From Himantopus leucocephalus (Eukaryota; Chordata; Aves; Charadriiformes; Recurvirostridae), in the NCBI GenBank assembly GCA_003993805.1, contig RSEF01000003.1:111928847-111992846 (forward strand): a stretch of DNA of 64,000 nt, in the 5' to 3' direction. The translations under genes were made by a program, and so were the position numbers. A model generated the notes under the pieces. That model saw only the letters and a program-made list of their open reading frames with translations. It searched no databases and was not told the DNA's origin. This document shows, piece by piece, positions 9,072 through 49,338 of the stretch. Each line of letters opens with the position of its first letter. Position 1 is the stretch's first letter.

Positions 9072-10087
9072 GAATCATAGAATGGTTACAGTTGGAAGGG
9101 ACCTTAAAGATAATCTAGTTCCAACCCCCCTGCCATGGGCAGGAACACCTTTCACTAGACCAGGTTACTCAAAGTCCCATGCAGCCTGGCCTTGAACGCT
9201 TCCAGGGGTGGGACCTCCACAACTTCTCTGGGCAACCTGTTCCAGCGCCTTACCACCCTCCCAGTACAGAAATTCTTCCTTATAGCTCGTCTAAATCTAC
9301 TGTCTTTCAGTTTAAAACTGTTACCCCTTCTCTTATCTCTACGCTCCCTGCTAAAGAGTCCCTCTCTAACTTTTCTGTAGGCCCCCTTTAAGTACTGAAA
9401 GGATGCAATAAGGTCTCCCCAGAGCCTTCTCTTCTCCACGGTGAACAACCCCAGCTCTCTCAGCCTGTCCTCATAGGAGAGGTGCTCCAGCCCTCTCATC
9501 ATCTTCGTGGCCCTCATCAGGACTCGCTCCAACAAGTCCATGTCCTTCTTATGTTGGGGACCTCAGAGTAGTCCAGGTGGGGTCTCACCAGAGCGGGGTA
9601 GAGGGGCAGAATCACCTCCCTTGACCTGCTGGCCACACTTCTTTTGATGCAGCACAGGATACAGTTGCCTTTCTGGGCTATAAGCATACATTGCCAACTC
9701 TTGTTGAGCTTCTTATTCACCAACGCCCCGAAATCCTTCTCAGCAAGGCTATTCTCAATCCATTCTCCACCCAACCTGTATTTGTGTTTGGGATTGCCCC
9801 AACCCATGTGCAGGACCTTGCGCTTGGCCTCTTTGAACTTCATGAGGTTTACACAGGCCCACTTCTCAAGCCTGTCCATGTCCCTCTGGATGGCATTCCT
9901 TCCCTCCAGCGTGTTGACTGCTCAACAGAGCTTGGTGTCATCAGAAAACTTGCTGAGCGTGCACTCAATCCCACTGTCCATGTTGCCGACAAAGATGTTA
10001 AATAGTACTGGTCTCAGTACTGACCTCTGTGGAACGCCACTTATCACTGGTCGCCACTTGGACATAGAGCCGTTGACCACAACTCAG
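9072..10087 (-). mobile_element. CR1 LINE, 5'-truncated ~1.0-kb copy, minus strand
   Basis: The plus strand opens with the inverted CR1 terminus (aatcatagaatggttac) and the 'ttggaagggaccttaaagat' block. It then reads backwards through the ORF2 C-terminal domain into the reverse-transcriptase region, ending near 10087 in the block just N-terminal of motif C. CR1 copies are normally 5'-truncated and lack long target-site duplications, and this one fits that pattern. It is moderately decayed and belongs to the same general subfamily as the copy at 40310-42530, whose C-terminal sequence it resembles closely. Confidence 0.95.
9155..10060 (-). pseudogene. Decayed CR1 ORF2 (reverse transcriptase and C-terminal region)
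   Basis: Read on the minus strand, the region carries the end of the reverse transcriptase with motif C still as FSDDTKL (both aspartates kept), then the CR1 thumb/C-terminal segments: NLMKFKEAKRKVLHMGWGNP, HKYRLGGEWIENS, a block ending VILPLYPALVRPHLDY and LSYEDRLRELGLF. Two open segments, 9517-9879 and 9155-9541, lie in different frames, so there is a frameshift near 9540-9570, apparently with a small deletion in the block after PHLDY. The endonuclease domain and the N-terminal part of the RT are absent. It cannot encode a working protein. Identity as CR1 ORF2 is firm; subfamily is not assigned. Confidence 0.92.
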
Positions 10088-10326: not shown

Positions 10327-10885
10327 TGTACTGGGTCAGGCTGGGATGGAGTTAACTTTGTTCTATGTGGTGCTGTTCTTTTTTTTTGTGACTAAAACAG
10401 TGTTGATAACACTAGTGTTTTGAATATTGCTGAGCAGTACTTGCACAGTGTCAAGGCTTTCTCTTTTTTGCACTCTGCCCCCTCAACAAATAGGTTGGGG
10501 ACGCACAATAAGTTGAGAGGGGACACAACAAGGACAGTTGACCCAAGCTCACCAAAGGGATATTCCATGCCATATAATGTCATGCTCAGCAAGAAAATAA
10601 TAGGAGAGAGGTTTTGGGGGGGAAACTGGTGGGGCATCATTCTCCTTGAGAGAGGTAGCGAGTCATCGACTTTGCATCACTTGTTTTATTCTCTTGCTCT
10701 TTTTTTTTCTTTTCCTCTTTCTCCTTCCTTCACTTATTAATCTATTTTTTTCCTGACACATGAGGTCTTTTTTGCTTTTGCTCTTCCTGTCCACTGCTTT
10801 TGCTCTTCCATATCCCACTGCAGGAGACACGGAGTGAGCAAGCAGCTATATGGTGCTTAGCTGCTGGCTGGGGCCAGCCCACAAC
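10327..10885 (+). mobile_element. Solo LTR of an avian endogenous retrovirus, family 1 (~560 bp)
   Basis: The sequence begins TGTACTGGGTCAGG and ends GGGGCCAGCCCACAACA, giving TG...CA termini. Inside, in order, are the 'ggctgggatggagttaac' block, the 'gttgataacact' block, a 'ttgacccaagctcaccaaa' block, 'gggatattccatgccatata' and the terminal 'gtgcttagctgctggctgg' block. Each has a counterpart in the LTR at 23941-24490, which is nearly the same length (550 bp). No internal retroviral sequence follows, so it is a solo LTR. The expected 5-bp flanking duplication is poor (CATGG versus TAAGG), implying age or an inexact boundary. The family resembles ERVL-type LTRs widespread in birds; the subfamily is uncertain. 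Confidence 0.88.
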
Positions 10886-15700: not shown

Positions 15701-18209
15701 TCCTTTTGTTCCACTCAGGCCATGTAGAAGGGAGACATTCTGAATTTAAACAGCCATAGAGGGATACCATTGCTGATAGAGGGATAGCATGGTGGTCTCT
15801 GCACTAATAAATACCTCCATCCATACTGAATAATGCTATTTTTTGAGAGTAAGGAGATGGTAGCAAAGCAGAGTTCCCCTGAACCTATTTCCTGCTCTCA
15901 CAGCCTAGACCACCTTGGCACATACACTTAGGTTTTGTAAACCAGCTCTCAAAGTGAAAGAACTCATCTGCTGCAGAAAGAAATCTATTTCAATACAATT
16001 CCTAAGCTGAAGTTTTCTCTTCCTTTCAGCACGGAAAATGTAGATTCATTCGTGTGAGAAGGTGTGGGTGAAAAAGAACAAGAATAATGTAAGGTTAGGA
16101 GATTTCTGAAGTAGATGATACTTTTAATTGCTTATATTGTAAGCAAATGAAATGAGATATAGGAAACCTAAGAAATATATAACAGAGGCAATTCTTTCAT
16201 CTCAGTTTATGTGGTTGCTGAAGCACAGGCAGGTGTTTCATCTTCCAGATTTTTCAGAAAGATATATATAGTTAGATCTTTGGTATCTGATAGAGATACA
16301 GTTCATTTAATTTAGATTTATACCTATGTTTTGGGCCTCTAGTGAGTCACTATTCCTAAAACCTACATTCTTTATAAAGTCAGAGAAGAAAGTAAATGCA
16401 TTTCAGGACCCCAGAGGAGGAACTTGTTTGCCTAAATCTGAATTTAAGCAAAAAGTTTAGATGGCAAACCTACCAGAATTCCTTCTACAGACTTCCATCT
16501 TTTGTCACTGTTGTACATGTCTGGTTTTGTGAGTTTGTGTCTTTGTGTATGTACACTTATTTACAATTCCCAACCTAAACAGAAATCTTTGATTTGAGAC
16601 TGTATTTCAGTTTTCATGTTGTTTCTCATAATTTCAGATTTCTTTTCCCCAACACTTCAGTCATGGAGTGGCATGAGTGGCAGAATCCAGCTCTTGGATG
16701 AACTTCGCTGAAGATGAATGCCTGTAAAAAGCAAAGCTCTACTTGTGCCCACATATGTACCCAAATCAATCCAGATATAGAGACCAATACATGTGCATCT
16801 CTAGGACCTTTTAAAAGTCTGCCTCCAAAAGGCACAATTCTCTCCATTTAACTCCAGACAAGGCAGATGAGAATGTCGAGAGAGGTATTTACCAAGCTTT
16901 TACCTCATAAAGGAGTTAGACACTATATTGAAGGAAATTAGCTTATAGGTTTCCAGAAGATGCAGTCTCTGGAGCTAGTTTAGACTGCAAACACGTCACC
17001 CTCAGTTCTCCCATAGCCACACCAAGAAGACAAACACTGATGTAACAAGGAATGTCCTAATAAATAATGCTGAAGTGACACGTGTGTAGGGGTTCACATG
17101 TCACAGAAGAATCTTACTTGATCCTACACAGATCAGTAGCTCCTGAACTCACTCCTAAATGACTTTTTGTGTTTATATTCTACCTCCATCCTGGTGTGCA
17201 ATATGTGTTAGGTTGACTGAGGATGACATGCTTACAATGAAACACTTTCTATTTGGCTTCAAAAAGAGCTGCAAAAATGTTAAATGCTAGACATGCCATT
17301 TTTCTGAATTCTTTGGGCTACTTTTAGCAGTGTTGTTCTGCTTTCTTCCTACTAAACTATGTAAATACCAGAAATAATTACCTCTGTTTTCATGGGTTTC
17401 CTATCTGTCTTTGGAGAAAATTAAGTACGTACCATAGCAGGTCTCTGCTTCTGAAGAAACTGCCAGTGTAGTTGTTCTAAAGCAAAGAAACAGGGGAGAT
17501 CAAACCAATTAGACTAGAAGATCGGTTCAGATGAATAACCTTAACTTAAGCTCATCCCTCAAATCTGGTGCACTGGTGAGTTCTAAGTTAGGAACCTAAT
17601 TACCTGAATTCCTTCAGTAGAAGTTAACAGATAAGTACTTCTGGAAAGCCATTTCACACACCTAAGATGTGAATTGCCTTTATAAGTGCCCTCTGTAAAG
17701 ACAGCCTAAGGGACTAGCTTTTTCAGGTAACTAATAATGTCTGGTCGATAATGTAGTCTTGGCTGTAATCCTCAGATATCCAGCTGTGCCCTTTTTTTTT
17801 CTTTCTTTTTTTTTNTTTTTTTTTCTTTTTTTTTTTTTTTTTTTTGCTTTTATTTCATTTTACTGCTTTACCAGTTTCTAATCTATAAAAGAATTTTAAC
17901 TTTCATCTGTAATTACTTAGGCATCTAAATCGTATAGCTTGAGAGGGACTTTGGAACTCCCCAAAAAACGTATAAAGTGCTTATGACTGCAATTGCATCT
18001 TAAACTGTGAGATTGCCCTTCATCTGTTTTGCTTTCTGTGACTTTTCTTTTTTCCCTCTGGAAAGGTCCAAAAATCATGGTGGATCAGGTCCAAAATTTT
18101 AGAGGGAAAAGAATAATGAAAAAAAACAGGAGGTGTTTTCTGTCGTTACTGCTGCATGGTTTATAATTTTCTTTTTAAATCTTAATTTCAGCAAATGTTC
18201 CAGGTGTTG
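12721..18209. other. Unique AT-rich non-coding DNA
   Basis: About 5.5 kb without a recognisable gene or well-preserved transposon. Short local features are a near-duplicate of ATAGAGGGATA at about 15757-15788 and the T-rich tract at 17791-17845. All open frames are short (under 90 codons) and lack protein character. Confidence 0.65.
17791..17845. repeat. T-rich tract with an undetermined base
   Basis: A run of T with scattered C, containing one N at 17815. The true length is likely uncertain. No adjoining retroelement body is seen that would make this an inverted poly-A tail. Confidence 0.85.
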
Positions 18210-23885: not shown

Positions 23886-23942
23886 AAAATACCATAGCCA
23901 CATGAAAATACTATGGCCACAACAAAATACCATGGCCACATG
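23886..23942. repeat. 19-bp x 3 tandem repeat abutting the LTR
   Basis: Three contiguous 19-bp units at 23886-23904, 23905-23923 and 23924-23942. The third reads AAAATACCATGGCCACATG; the first differs from it at one position and the second at three. The last two bases of the third unit are the TG of the LTR that starts at 23941, so the array runs flush into the insertion. The composite probably inserted into, or at the edge of, a pre-existing minisatellite. Confidence 0.9.
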
Positions 23943-24490
23943 TCATGGTTTCAGTTGTAATAGAGTTACCTTTCTTGCTAGCAGCTGGTATAGTGCTATG
24001 TTTTGGATTTGGGATGGGAAATAGTGCTGGTGCACACTGGTGTTTTTGGTTTTTGCTAAGCAGTCAAGGCCTTTTCTGCTCCTCATCCCACCCCACCAGC
24101 AAGTTGGGAGCAGATACAGCTGACCCCAACTGTTCAAAGGGATATTCCATACTATGTGATGTCATGCTCAGTATATAAAGCTGGGGGAAGAAGAAGGAAG
24201 GGGAGGCATTTGGAGTGAAGGCACTTGTCTTCCCAAGTAACTGCTATGTATGATGGAGCCCTGCTTCCCTGGACATGGCTGAACACCTGTCTGACGATGG
24301 GAAGCAGTGAATGAATTCCTTGTTCTGCTATGCTTGTGTGCATATCTTTTGTTCTACATATTAAACTGTCTTTATCTCAATCCATGAGTTTTTTCTCAGT
24401 TTTACTCTTCTGATTCTCTCCCCCACCCCATCTTGGGGGAGTGGGTGAGTGGCTGTGTGGTGCTTGGTTGTGGCTGGGCTTAAACCACGA
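23941..24490 (+). mobile_element. Full-length LTR, family 1, left arm of the composite
   Basis: Begins TGTCATGGTTTCAGTTG and ends GGGCTTAAACCACGA, about 550 bp, co-linear with the solo LTR at 10327-10885. Regulatory parts are still visible: a TATA-like TATATAAA at 24172-24179 just after 'gtgatgtcatgctcag', and an ATTAAA polyadenylation signal at 24360-24365. The downstream 'cccccaccccatcttggggg' hairpin-like block and the 'ggtgcttggttgtggctggg' block complete the U5 end. The canonical final CA is not clear: the LTR runs directly into tRNA-derived sequence at about 24491. No coding capacity. Confidence 0.9.
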
Positions 24491-24555
24491 AAATCCAACA
24501 TAGCCACAACCCTGAGATTGAGAGTCTTATGCTCTACCGACTGAGCTAGCTGGGT
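24491..24555 (-). pseudogene. tRNA-Lys(CTT)-like sequence, antisense, at the primer-binding-site position
   Basis: On the minus strand, from 24555 down, the sequence reads through an acceptor-like ACCCAG, a D arm with TAGCTCAGTCGGTAGAGCAT, an anticodon arm with loop CTCTCAA and then CAGGGTTGTGG. This matches vertebrate tRNA-Lys-CTT with about two mismatches over 41 nt. One mismatch changes the anticodon position from CTT to CTC. The T arm is damaged by a deletion of roughly nine bases and internal box B is lost, although box A is intact. Location and orientation (complement of the tRNA directly after U5) match a retroviral primer-binding site, but it spans the entire tRNA, not 18 nt. It is not a functional tRNA gene. 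Confidence 0.82.
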
Positions 24556-24592
24556 GAGAGGTCCCGGGTTCGCATCCTGGACAAGCTCTCCA
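24552..24592 (+). pseudogene. tRNA-Pro 3' half, sense, fused to the tRNA-Lys 5' end
   Basis: The plus strand reads GGGTGAGAGGTCCCGGGTTC followed by GCATCCTGGACAAGCTC. This corresponds to vertebrate tRNA-Pro from the 3' side of the anticodon loop through the variable region, T arm (box B-like GGTTCGCATCC) and acceptor 3' strand. CCA follows at 24590-24592, one base displaced from where the encoded tRNA would end. The 5' half (acceptor, D arm, anticodon) is missing. Read on the minus strand this is TGG plus the complement of tRNA-Pro, exactly what a proline primer-binding site would be downstream of the inverted LTR, again extended well past 18 nt. It overlaps the tRNA-Lys match by the shared GGGT. 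Confidence 0.8.
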
Positions 24593-24798
24593 AAAAGGAC
24601 ATTGTGGTTGTGGACTTCTTGTTCACTCCCAGCCTACTCACTGGCAGGGCAGGATGAGGAGCAGAAAAGGCCTTGACTGCTAAGAAACAACCAAACACCA
24701 GTGCGCTGTCAACACTATTTCCCATCCCAGATCCGACACATAACACTATACAAGCTGCTAGTAAGAAAATTAGCCCTATCCCAACAGAAACCATGAGG
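24593..24798 (-). mobile_element. Inverted LTR fragment, family 1, right arm of the composite
   Basis: On the minus strand from about 24798 the sequence reads CTCATGGTTTCTGTTGGGAT and follows the first ~175 bp of the family-1 LTR, including 'gggatgggaaatagtg' and the 17-base block AGTCAAGGCCTTTTCTG, which is identical to the left arm. It then jumps to a short CCACAACCACAATGTCC segment that may be the last few LTR bases, and reaches TTTTTGG and the proline primer-site sequence. Most of R/U5 is therefore deleted. By eye the arm differs from the left arm at roughly 15% of positions. The outer terminus has lost its canonical CA (CCATGAGG instead of CCATGACA). Confidence 0.87.
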
Positions 24799-27332
24799 CC
24801 ACGTTACTCAGGATCTCCCACTTGAATTCACCGTCTCCTGCCATTTGAAGTAGAGTAAAGCCTTTGCTGGCTGCAGCATTTTAGAAGTTTGTAGTTGTCT
24901 CTACTGGATAGTTACCAGACAGCATTTGGGTGGCCTGACACTCCATCCTCTAGGAGTCAACAGAATGTAAACAGTAGTTAGCAGATTATATTGTGTCAAG
25001 CCACATTTGGAAACCTGTTTTCTTCCTAAATTCCCACTGTGTTTTCAGCATCGGAATCTCCAGCTTTTTTTTCTCTTTAAAATCTAGCATTGTTATCTGG
25101 CTTTAAATAGCATGAGAATCCTCTGTAAGAAAATAAGCTAAATAAATACGACATTTTGGTATAAACATAAAACATTGTTTCTTTCTGTGCTTTGGTTACC
25201 ATAGGTTGGAAATGATATTTCAAAAAACCCATTAATGTTCCATATTACAAAATGTAAGATGTTAAACGTTCATTTTCTGGAAGATAATATTTTATTGCAT
25301 ATGATTATTTTAAAATGGCTTTTATCTGCAGATTGAATAAATATCCTACAAACTGAACACTTTGTCCATAAAAGCATGAGATAAGGTTTTTTCTTTTTCT
25401 AAAAAATACTCAACATACAAGAACAAAACCTAAGTCTTTGAAGTCAATATTTGTCAGTGTCTAAAGTAAATTTTGGTGTGGTTTTTTTTTTTTAATTTAA
25501 TCTTAAAATTTAGAACAAGAGATATTTGAAAAAGTCAGCTGTTCAGAGATGAATATGAAAACTGCTAATCTTCTAATGAAAAATACGTTGAGTTGGGTTT
25601 GCTATGTCATGCTACTTAACATTTGGCAGTATCCAGATAATAATGTTGGCCAATAACAGACTCCTACACAAATGCCTCATTGGCTTGAAGTTCGTAGTTT
25701 ACTATTAAAGCTAAGTAAAGCTTTTATTTTTCTAATGCAAAACTAGGCTTTTGACCTAACAATATGCTTAATCATTTGTGTTAAACATCTACTTTCCTGC
25801 AGCATTTAATGATTTCATTGAGAAATTAAAAGCTCTGGTTAGACTGTCTGATCAGAATAATTCACTCACAATGCACCACAGCTAGAGTATATAATACAGC
25901 CCACTCAGAGCCTTATAGAATCAATAAGTGGTTCACTACATGGAAGAATTTAAAAGGACATAGACATGGTAGTATTTTGGCAGAACACCTCTTTCATGAG
26001 CATGTTTTACTGATGAACTTCAAGTTCTTTTCCTTTTGAAAAATAATTATTTTCTATTCTTTCCTCCACATAAAATAAGACTTGCAGGAAAAGACACTGC
26101 TGGTCTACTGGCACAAGCTGTTGAGAACCAGACATCTCTTTTCTTCATCAGCATAATGCCATCTGCCACAGACAGAGATTAAAACTGAGGAAGAAGGAAG
26201 AGAATGACACCAACAGGAAAGATGTTTATTAAATCCCCGGTGATGTCTATTCAGTCTTCTCTAGATCTGGTTAGAAAAACAGTCAGACTGTTCAAAACCT
26301 ATTGGGTTCCTAGAAAAAAAACTGCATTAATTTTCTTTCCCTTAATAATATTACAATTGATCTATGTGTACTTTTGAAGACTAAGAATCTCTAAGGATAT
26401 TGCAAAAAAGTGCATCTAATAACACTTTTGAAATAAGGAACACTGAGTGTTTTGTGTTTCAAATATTTGAGGGCATTATGGAAATATCACTCAGGGCAGG
26501 AAGAATACCAAGAAAACATCAAAACAAAGTATGTAAAAGTCCTCTCACATGTCTATTAAGAAAATAACAGACTGTCACTGTATTTCTGGATTAGCTGCCT
26601 GAATCTAAAATACTAAAACAACAAACACAAGATGTGGTTTCTGTCTATATAAGTTAATGAACACTGTGGAAAAATGAAAACTACTTTGAACTTTTTGCAT
26701 TAAAGTAACACTTACAGGATTTTACTGAAATGGATCCTCACTGAGCTAAAGTATTGCAGAAACACACAGTTAGAAACAGCCCCAGTCCCTTAAAACTTAC
26801 ATCATACACAGAGAAAATAGATTATGAAAGAATGAAAAAAAATTAATTGTTTATTTCTTTACACGTTGTGGATTTGTGCAGGGAAGCAGAAGTAAGAAGT
26901 AAAAGGACTTCCAGTCTTTTCTTACAACTGCTCATTTATAGCAGCAGAGTATAAGTAAAGTTGGTGTTCTCACTGCTACTCTAATATGTGAAGAAAACTG
27001 TTTTAGAATCCCTTCTTGAGCTCTGAGAGTAGGGCTTAGGGCCCCTACAGCCAAAGAGGGGAACTGGGCTGTGAAACCCAAATGGAGGGAAATGCATCTT
27101 AACAAGAAGGAATAATGCAACTAGCAAATCAATACCTCACCCAGACCAGCGTTTCTTTGGGCAGCAACTTGCTTAAGGACACCGCTTTGGTAGGTTCAGT
27201 TCTCCGTGTACACTGTATAGGGAACGCAAGCACCTAACACAGTATGCTGGACTCCCTCTGGGAATCTGGAACATAAATGCTGTGATATAGCCATGGCACT
27301 GCATGGCCATACAGGCACGGTCCCAGGCAATG

Positions 27333-40309: not shown

Positions 40310-42337
40310 GAAGCTCAAGGGCAGCCTTGGCTGCAGTGACCATGAAATTATGGAGTTCAAGATCCTTAGGGTGGAGAGGAGTTTGCACAGCAAGCTCATT
40401 ACCCTGGACTTCAAGAGAGTAGACTTTGGCCTCTTCAGGGATCTGCTTGGTAGAGCACCATGGCATGAAGACCTGGAGGGAAGAGAAGCCCAAAAAAACT
40501 GGTCAGTATTCACAGATCAGCTCATCCAAGCTCAGGAGCAATGCACAAAGGGGAAGTCAGGCAAAATCACCACAAGGCCTGCATGGATGAACAAGGACAA
40601 ACTCATACACAAAAAAGAAGCCTACAGAGGGTGGAAGCAAGGACAGGTAGCCAGGAAGGAATACAGAGAAATTCAGAGCATCCAGGGATCAGGTTAGGAA
40701 AGCTAAAGCCAAGACAGAGTTAAATCTGGCCAGGGATGTCAAGGGCAACATGAAAAGTTTCTATAGGTACATCAGTGATAAAAGGAAGACTAGGGAAAAT
40801 GTAGGGCCTCTCTGGAAGGAAACAGGAGACCTGGTCATCCAGGATATGGAGAAGGCTGAGGTACTCAGTGACTGTTTTTGCCTCAGTCTTCAACAGCAAG
40901 TGCTCTAGCCACACCACCTAAGTCACAGAAGGCAAAGGCAGGGACTGGGAGAAAGAAGAACTGCCCACGGTAAGAGCAGGTCAGGTTTGAGACCATCTAA
41001 GGAACCTGAAGGTGCACAAGTCCATGGGACCTGATGAGATGCATCTGCAGGTCCTGAGGGAACTGGCGGATGAAGTTTCCAAACCACTATCCATCATATT
41101 TGAGAAGTCATGGCGGTCCAGTGAAGTCCTACTGACTGGAAAAGGGGAAACACCACCCCCATTTTTAAAAAGGATAAACAGAAGACCCAGGGAACTACAA
41201 GCCGGTCATTCTCATCTCCGTGCACAGCAAGATCATGGAGCCTCCTGGAAATTATACTAAGGAAAATGGAAAATAAGGAAGTGATCAGTGACAGCCAACA
41301 TGGCTTCACTAACGGCAAATCGTGCCTGACAAATTTGGTGGCCTTCTACGATGGGGTTACAGCTTTAGTGGATAAGGGAAGAGCAGCTGACATCATCTAC
41401 CACGACATGTGCAAAGCATTTGACACTGTCCCGCGTGTTATTGTTGTCTCTACATTAGAGACACATGGATTTGGTGGATGGACTACATGGTGGATAAGGA
41501 ATTGGCTGGATGGTCGCACTCATGGCTTGATGTCCAAGTGGTAACCAGTGACAAGTGGCGTTCCTCAGGTGTTGGTATTGGGACCAGCGCTATTTAACAT
41601 CTTTGTCAGCAACATGGGCACTGGGATTGAGTTCACCCTCAGCAAGTATGCCAATGACATCAAGCTGTGTGGAGCAGTTGAGACACTGGAGGGAAGGGAT
41701 GCTATCCGGAAGGACCTGGACAGGCTTGAGAGGTGGGCTCATGCAAATCTCATGAAGTTCAACAAGGTCAAGTGCAAGGTCCTGCAAGTGGGTTGGGGCA
41801 ATCCCAAGCACAAATACAGGTTGGGTGGAGAATGGATTGAGAAAAGCCCTGCTGAAAAGGACTTGGGGGTGTTGGTGTATGAGAAGTTCAACATAAGCCA
41901 GCTATACGCACTTGTAGCCCAGAAAGCCAACGGAATTCTGGACTTCATCAAAAGAATTGTGGCCAGAAGGTCGAAGGAGGTGATTCTGCCCATCTGCTCT
42001 GCTCTGGTGAGACCCCACCCGGAGTAGTACTGTGTCCAGCTCTGTAGCTGTAGCAACTCACCTGTTGGAGTGGGTCCAGAGGAGGGCCACAAAAATGTGC
42101 AGAGGGATGGAACACCTCTCCTATGAGGACAGTATGAGAGAGTTGGTGTTGTTCACCCTGGAGAAGAGAAGGCTCTGGGGAGACCTTATTGTCACCTTTC
42201 AGTACTTAAAGGGGGCCTACAGGAAAGATGGAGAGGAACCCTTTATCAGGGACTGTAGTGATAGGACAAGAGGTAATGGTTTTAAGCCAAAAGAGCGTAG
42301 ACTTAGGCTGGATATAAGGAAGAAATTTTTTCTCTGA
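40310..42337 (+). pseudogene. CR1 ORF2 remnant of copy B (RT with mutated motif C)
   Basis: Protein-like segments fall in three frames. They are endonuclease end and linker (to about 40697), RT start (about 41012-41260), RT palm (41266-41544 and 41548-42027) and C-terminal domain (42032-42337), so several frameshifts are present. Motif A survives as YHDMCKAFDTVP. Motif C reads KYANDIKL, so the first of the two catalytic aspartates (normally FADD) has become asparagine. A TAA at 41542-41544 and a TAG at 42025-42027 add stops. The C-terminal part includes NLMKFNKVKCKVLQVGWGNP, KHKYRLGGEWIEKSPAEKDL and LSYEDSMREL. Non-functional on several independent grounds. Confidence 0.94.
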
Positions 42338-42530
42338 GGGTGGTGAAACACTGGACCAGGTTGCCCAGAGAGGTGGTAAATGCGCCATCACCGGAAACAT
42401 TCCGGGTCAGGTTGGACAGGAATCTGAGTACCTGGTCTAGGGGAAGGTGTCCCTGCTCATTGCAGGGGGGTTAGAACTAGTGATCTTTAAGGTCTCTTCC
42501 AACCCAAACCGTTCTATCATTCTGTGAATT
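40310..42530 (+). mobile_element. CR1 LINE copy B, plus strand, ~2.2 kb
   Basis: The longest uninterrupted CR1 in the window. It begins near the end of the endonuclease (GSLGCSDHEIMEF), continues through linker, reverse transcriptase and C-terminal domain, and ends with 'cttccaacccaaaccgttct' and 'atcattctgtga', a typical CR1 3' terminus. The bases just before 40310 do not resemble CR1, so this is the 5' truncation point. Copy A is truncated slightly further upstream in the same domain. The subfamily resembles the 9072-10087 copy and differs from copy A. Confidence 0.95.
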
Positions 42531-49166: not shown

Positions 49167-49338
49167 TGCACGGTCTGGCTGGGATGGAGTTAATTTTCAT
49201 CACAGCAGCTTGTATGGTGCTATGTTTTGGATTTGTGACCAAAGCCGTGCTGATAACTCAGGGATGTTAAAACTGGGTGGGGGAGTGAGCAAGAGGTTGT
49301 GTGGAGCTTGGCTGCCAGCTGGGGTTAACCCAAATCAT
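49167..49338 (+). mobile_element. Internally deleted LTR, family 1 (~170 bp)
   Basis: The first ~105 bp follow the family-1 LTR start: 'gtctggctgggatggagtta', then 'gtgctatgttttggatttgt' and 'gctgataactca'. It then jumps to the LTR 3' end with 'ctgggtgggggagtgagcaa' and 'agcttggctgccagctgggg', finishing near GTTAACCCAAATCA. Full-length relatives at 10327 and 23941 are 550-560 bp, so about 390 bp, including TATA and polyadenylation signals, are missing. The terminal TG and CA are both decayed, so boundaries are good to a few bases only. Confidence 0.85.

Follow-up and report, generated by a model that had tools for sequence, protein, structure and literature searches.

A putative product of aberrant reverse transcription with two U3 ends and two tRNA copies between inverted LTR arms in a bird genome

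Scanning a 64,000-nt stretch of avian DNA (here called the window; G000:C161:111928847-111992846 within a 1.1-Gb assembly), we found a composite insert in which two tRNA copies lie between inverted LTR arms of one family, with a U3 sequence at either outer end. We consider it probable, at roughly 0.6, that this structure goes back to a single, old event in which an aberrant product of reverse transcription, bearing U3 at each end, was inserted. Modifications of the primer tRNA set the end of plus-strand strong-stop DNA, and a single insertion of an aberrant reverse-transcription product offers the most economical account of the structure.

Results

The order of parts proposed in the first-pass annotation, namely an LTR (+), an antisense tRNA-Lys, a sense tRNA-Pro 3' half and an inverted partial LTR (-), was borne out with corrections. 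Next to the word CCACA (23936-23940), the presumed left copy of the target duplication, stands an LTR on the plus strand (23941-24490) that is full length from U3 to near its 3' end; it starts with TG, while its terminal CA and the border of the primer site are damaged. There follow a copy of tRNA-Lys(CTT) on the minus strand, antisense to the plus strand, that runs to the tRNA 5' end and lacks ~9 nt of the T arm (24495-24554), and, on the plus strand, the 3' half of a tRNA-Pro, which the alignment places at ~nt 40-76 including the CCA (24555-24592). A 22-nt linker (24593-24614, minus strand) then leads into the first ~185 nt of an inverted U3 (24615-24798, minus strand), whose inner border is soft and whose outer two bases read CC, not TG, on its own strand. 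The right flank begins with CCACG (24799-24803), the presumed second copy of the target duplication. There is no N inside the insert, the nearest ones lying at 17815 and 30035. Each tRNA piece had been described as lying exactly where the primer site of its own arm should be; this holds well for tRNA-Lys but only loosely for tRNA-Pro, because all that can be picked out by eye in the 22 nt of the linker is, at best and on a weak reading, a spacer of 7 nt and an LTR-end word of 8 nt.

Both tRNA matches far exceed chance. Best local scores within the insert were 72 for tRNA-Lys and 41 for tRNA-Pro, compared with 25 for each in the rest of the window and with maxima of 28 and 27, respectively, in 50 Markov-1 sequences of 64 kb. 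Over 24504-24554, the antisense tRNA-Lys aligns gap-free to a human tRNA-Lys(CTT) gene with 4 mismatches in 51 positions, and it shows 6 mismatches in 51 (88% identity) to the one intact gene that a pattern search found in this genome (L011). When a 9-nt gap is allowed, the match begins at 24495. The Rfam score of the piece, 28.7 bits, falls just under the gathering score of 29; an Rfam scan of the whole window at the gathering score listed nothing, and ARAGORN found no tRNA gene. The copy, which had been called complete, does reach the tRNA 5' end, terminating in a GGG that corresponds to tRNA nt 2-4, but ~9 nt of the T arm are missing, and the word is too strong because the CCA end and the border between LTR and primer site are damaged. 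The plus arm shows an LTR and then, across this damaged border, a primer site that runs into tRNA-Lys beyond nt 58.

Judged by the genome's own genes reading TGTGAG (L044, L045), the tRNA-Pro piece starts at about nt 40. The GGG at 24552-24554 could, however, be common to both tRNAs as tRNA-Pro nt 35-37, and the start would be nt 35 if this is so and two bases were lost. The two ends that meet at this joint resemble known strong-stop products of tRNA-Lys3 in HIV-1, of which some extend to the tRNA 5' end and others terminate at position 37 (PMC13191261). A methylated G37 may be what halted the copying of tRNA-Pro.

Sequence comparison indicates that both arms are ordinary members of one LTR family. 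A genome search with the plus-strand LTR returned 3023 first-look candidates, of which the best 40 were scored (the window and 39 others), and these 39 other scored copies match it at 76-82%; the family is abundant. We read 27 of the 39 and used them for a tree and alignments. By eye, no primer site follows the LTR end in these 27 copies, and they therefore look like solo LTRs. Eight of them carry, again by eye, an exact 5-bp duplication (L002, L006, L022, L026, L027, L028, L030 and L038), and the target duplication is imperfect or unclear in the remainder. TG...CA termini with a 5-bp duplication are thus found in other copies of the family, which, with its 5-bp target duplication, we take to be an ERVL-like ERV.

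The inverted arm is 82.4% identical to the plus arm over 165 columns, and the 27 family copies have an average identity of 79.4% (range 62-90%). The tree of the arms and the 27 copies is star-like and weakly supported, which is consistent with the supposition of the first-pass annotation that both arms belong to the same family; the two arms do not group in it, so that a common template is neither shown nor excluded. The branch of the inverted arm (0.14) is longer than that of the plus arm (0.085), and the divergence of the tRNA-Lys copy from the human gene (4/51) and from the genome's gene (6/51) is near the latter value. At the inner end of the inverted arm, the match ends at arm base 184-185 (window 24614-24615) in 6 of the 27 alignments and is extended with gaps to arm base 194-203 in the other 21, and it is these differing end points that make the border soft. 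No R or U5 was recognised in the inverted arm, only the ~185 nt of U3, and no complete U3-R-U5 precedes the tRNA on the Pro side. A candidate 33-nt U5 remnant within this arm was rejected, as it is mostly U3, and the 22-nt linker scored weakly (16-25.5) against the last 90 nt of the 27 LTRs.

Further LTR material related to the insert is present in the window, where a piece at 49184-49332 has its U3 start joined to the LTR end with the middle absent, and another piece lies at 10534-10589. Among the LTR copies elsewhere, four (L037, L041, L058 and L062) have a single N at a joint and resemble faulty assembly joins; in L037 and L041, both members of the insert's family, U5 ends are duplicated on both sides of the N.

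The two outer ends of the insert are both U3 termini, as the first-pass annotation had proposed: the inverted arm represents the U3 start of the same family as the plus arm, its outer two bases being altered. The flanking words CCACA and CCACG match at 4 of 5 positions, which corresponds in size to the 5-bp duplication known from other copies of the family; the CCACA word also recurs in the left flank within a 19-base spaced repeat. Since the right terminus has CC in place of the expected TG, a second reading of the flanks is a 7-bp match (6/7) with the loss of two terminal bases.

Across the 1.1-Gb assembly, only the window spanned the centre of the insert, 24484-24632 (three first-look candidates, all three scored), in a search that omits very common words and scores the best candidates only. 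It had been suggested that the structure, if it recurred, would be a non-autonomous element family; with the centre found once, the idea of such a family finds no support. A tRNA-derived SINE was likewise rejected, given the single copy and the position of the tRNA pieces between LTR arms. Pattern searches of viral contigs gave 0 matches.

Antisense tRNA-Lys stands beside LTR-like ends at four further loci, which suggests that such events can be counted. A genome-wide search for 17 bases of the 5' arm of tRNA-Lys, allowing at most one mismatch, found eight places, and the reversed control word found none. Five of the eight lie beside LTR-like ends (the window, which is L015, and L010, L014, L018 and L020); L016 is a tRNA-Lys gene, and L017 and L019 are without tRNA context. 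On the strand of the antisense tRNA, the LTR end of L010 (the same as L013) is followed by GATTAAT, the Lys primer site and the entire antisense tRNA-Lys, after which comes another LTR terminus, of ~16 nt; the far side of the locus consists of N (C67:20498699-20501473). At L014, L018 and L020, 34 to 66 nt of an LTR terminus pass into an antisense tRNA-Lys that extends to the tRNA 5' end. From this arrangement, minus-strand U5 DNA appears to have jumped onto tRNA-Lys at L014, at a short word common to both, and copied it to the 5' end, and the same may, less certainly, have happened at L018 and L020. No target duplication was found at these three loci, and they are therefore not ordinary two-ended integrations.

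The reading of these termini as minus-strand U5 rests, for L014 and, through its similarity (83.6%, 9 gaps), for L010, on the full LTRs L059 and L061, in which the piece comes after an ATTAAA signal. The basis is a weaker similarity to window 40104-40075 in the case of L018, and in that of L020 the terminus it shares, together with a weak match to window 18274-18228. A search with the L014 LTR end gave 991 candidates, of which the best 40 were scored; in all 39 other copies the match breaks off at base 67 or 68, the start of the tRNA. The possibility that the tRNA piece is native to this LTR was rejected on these grounds.

Related elements show other unusual ends. L065 (151-260; G000:C197:30603401-30603510) has an inverted U5 directly before a U5, which leads via the spacer GATTAAT to a primer site for tRNA-Lys; as L065 is a related Lys-primed element, this confirms the spacer and primer site of the L010 kind. 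The sequence downstream of its primer site is by eye pol-like, and the locus represents an aberrant end structure of a Lys-primed element. Three loci, L060, L063 and L064, have an LTR end like that of L014 joined upstream to unrelated or distant sequence with no N at the joint; these are truncated or internally deleted LTRs and may be integrated short strong-stop-like products.

The corresponding word from tRNA-Pro matched 15 places, comprising three tRNA-Pro genes (L042, L044 and L045), the window and 11 places that lacked tRNA context as judged by eye and by ARAGORN. As the control, the pattern reversed, matched at 27 places and thus more often than the pattern itself, the 11 places are at chance level, and no Pro read-through was found elsewhere in the genome among the 15 places. 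With at most one mismatch, an LTR-end word occurred within 150 bp of 5/8 Lys places versus 2/14 non-window Pro places, and an exact word within 150 bp of 4/8 versus 0/14, on a background of 12 in ~63 kb; this adjacency control is not independent, because the word was picked after the Lys loci had been seen.

Discussion

We propose that plus-strand strong-stop synthesis overran the methyl-A58 stop and copied tRNA-Lys, the putative primer, to its 5' end, while a second strand would have entered tRNA-Pro and stopped in the anticodon arm near position 37. The two strands may then have been joined via the short GGG match, either because they annealed and were extended or because a template switch took place, and the resulting product, with U3 at both ends, could have been inserted by integrase through its two U3 termini. 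The remaining U3, R and U5 of the inverted arm would have been lost by deletion, during copying or later. The proposal draws on the order and orientation of the parts, the flanks matching at 4/5 over the length that eight of the 27 copies duplicate exactly, the single family of the arms, the divergence of tRNA-Lys (4/51) near the plus arm's branch and the tRNA-Lys read-through at four further loci. It is also favoured by the absence of the tRNA piece from all 39 scored relatives of the L014 LTR end, by the presence in L065 of the spacer and Lys primer site of L010, and by the published strong-stop end points at the tRNA 5' end and at position 37 (PMC13191261). Against it stand the right terminus, which is CC and not TG, the one mismatch in the duplication, the arms that stay ungrouped in the tree, the Pro read-through seen nowhere else, and L014, L018 and L020, which are without target duplication. 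The first-pass annotation had modelled the insert as two plus-strand strong-stop DNAs, one primed by each tRNA. The single family, the primer orientation, U3 at both ends and the 4/5 flanks agree with that model, but the Pro arm does not: with neither R nor U5 recognisable in the inverted arm, the strand on the Pro side is not plain strong-stop DNA.

Could the structure have arisen after integration, through two opposite insertions of the same family that were fused by deletion or inversion, with the tRNA sequences as pseudogenes or relics of primer regions? The internal deletion of the inverted arm, the internally deleted LTR nearby (49184-49332) and the failure of the arms to group all speak for such a history. 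Yet an ordinary primer site comprises ~18 nt and does not run to the 5' end of the tRNA, the outer flanks agree at 4/5, both tRNA pieces would have had to land in primer orientation by chance, and separate accidents would have been required at the four other loci where an LTR meets tRNA-Lys; we therefore regard such a rearrangement as unlikely.

We give even less weight to a single nascent strand that switched serially from the LTR to tRNA-Lys, tRNA-Pro and a second viral template, with the tRNAs serving as stray templates and not as primers. The tRNA-Pro retains its CCA end and lies towards the inverted arm, as expected of a primer, and tRNA-Lys comes after the LTR end and is oriented like a primer, although L014, and less surely L018 and L020, does resemble minus-strand U5 DNA switching to tRNA-Lys at short shared words. 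An artefact of assembly is very improbable: faulty joins do seem to occur in this assembly, as at L037 and L041 with their U5 ends duplicated across a single N, but the insert is without N, its arms differ by 18%, its tRNA pieces carry changes of their own, and its flanks match.

For the insertion of an aberrant reverse-transcription product, which we prefer, each half of the proposed event has a precedent; searches of the open-licence literature showed us no report of the combination, two tRNAs between inverted LTR arms with U3 at both ends. Reportedly, a Moloney MLV provirus with inverted LTRs, described by Colicelli and Goff in 1988, was integrated through two U3 sequences. As reported, it would share inverted LTRs, U3 at both ends and integration via two U3 ends with our insert, which is a short fossil in the germline and includes two pieces of tRNA. 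In an HIV provirus in a cell line, a reverse-transcribed tRNA-Gly (67/72 nt) lies beside the 3' LTR (Gurgo and Franchini 2025, PMC12220202). As in the window, a DNA copy of a mature tRNA with its CCA is joined to an LTR; the tRNA-Gly lies outside the LTR, in contrast to the pair of tRNAs that our inverted arms enclose. A review describes over-extended plus-strand strong-stop DNA for HIV-1 and tRNA-Lys3, some products extending to the tRNA 5' end and others terminating at position 37, and states that only products ending at m1A58, psi55 or m5U54 serve as templates (PMC13191261). Failure of the tRNA-modification stops is described there from cell or test-tube work with HIV-1, while in the window such products appear to have become fixed in a genome.

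More tentatively, bird germlines may record reverse transcriptase overrunning methyl-A58, with strong-stop DNAs of two tRNAs pairing head to head and integrating via two U3 ends, and with Lys-primed minus-strand strong-stop DNA repeatedly jumping onto tRNA-Lys and copying it to its 5' end. If this is true, counting such events across a whole genome would give the natural failure rate of each tRNA modification stop, and germline fossils with defined tRNA end points would tell where reverse transcriptase overran, in which families, and what integrase accepted. The window also contains an inverted repeat of ~1 kb with 80% identity, at 9072-10071 and 41524-42522.
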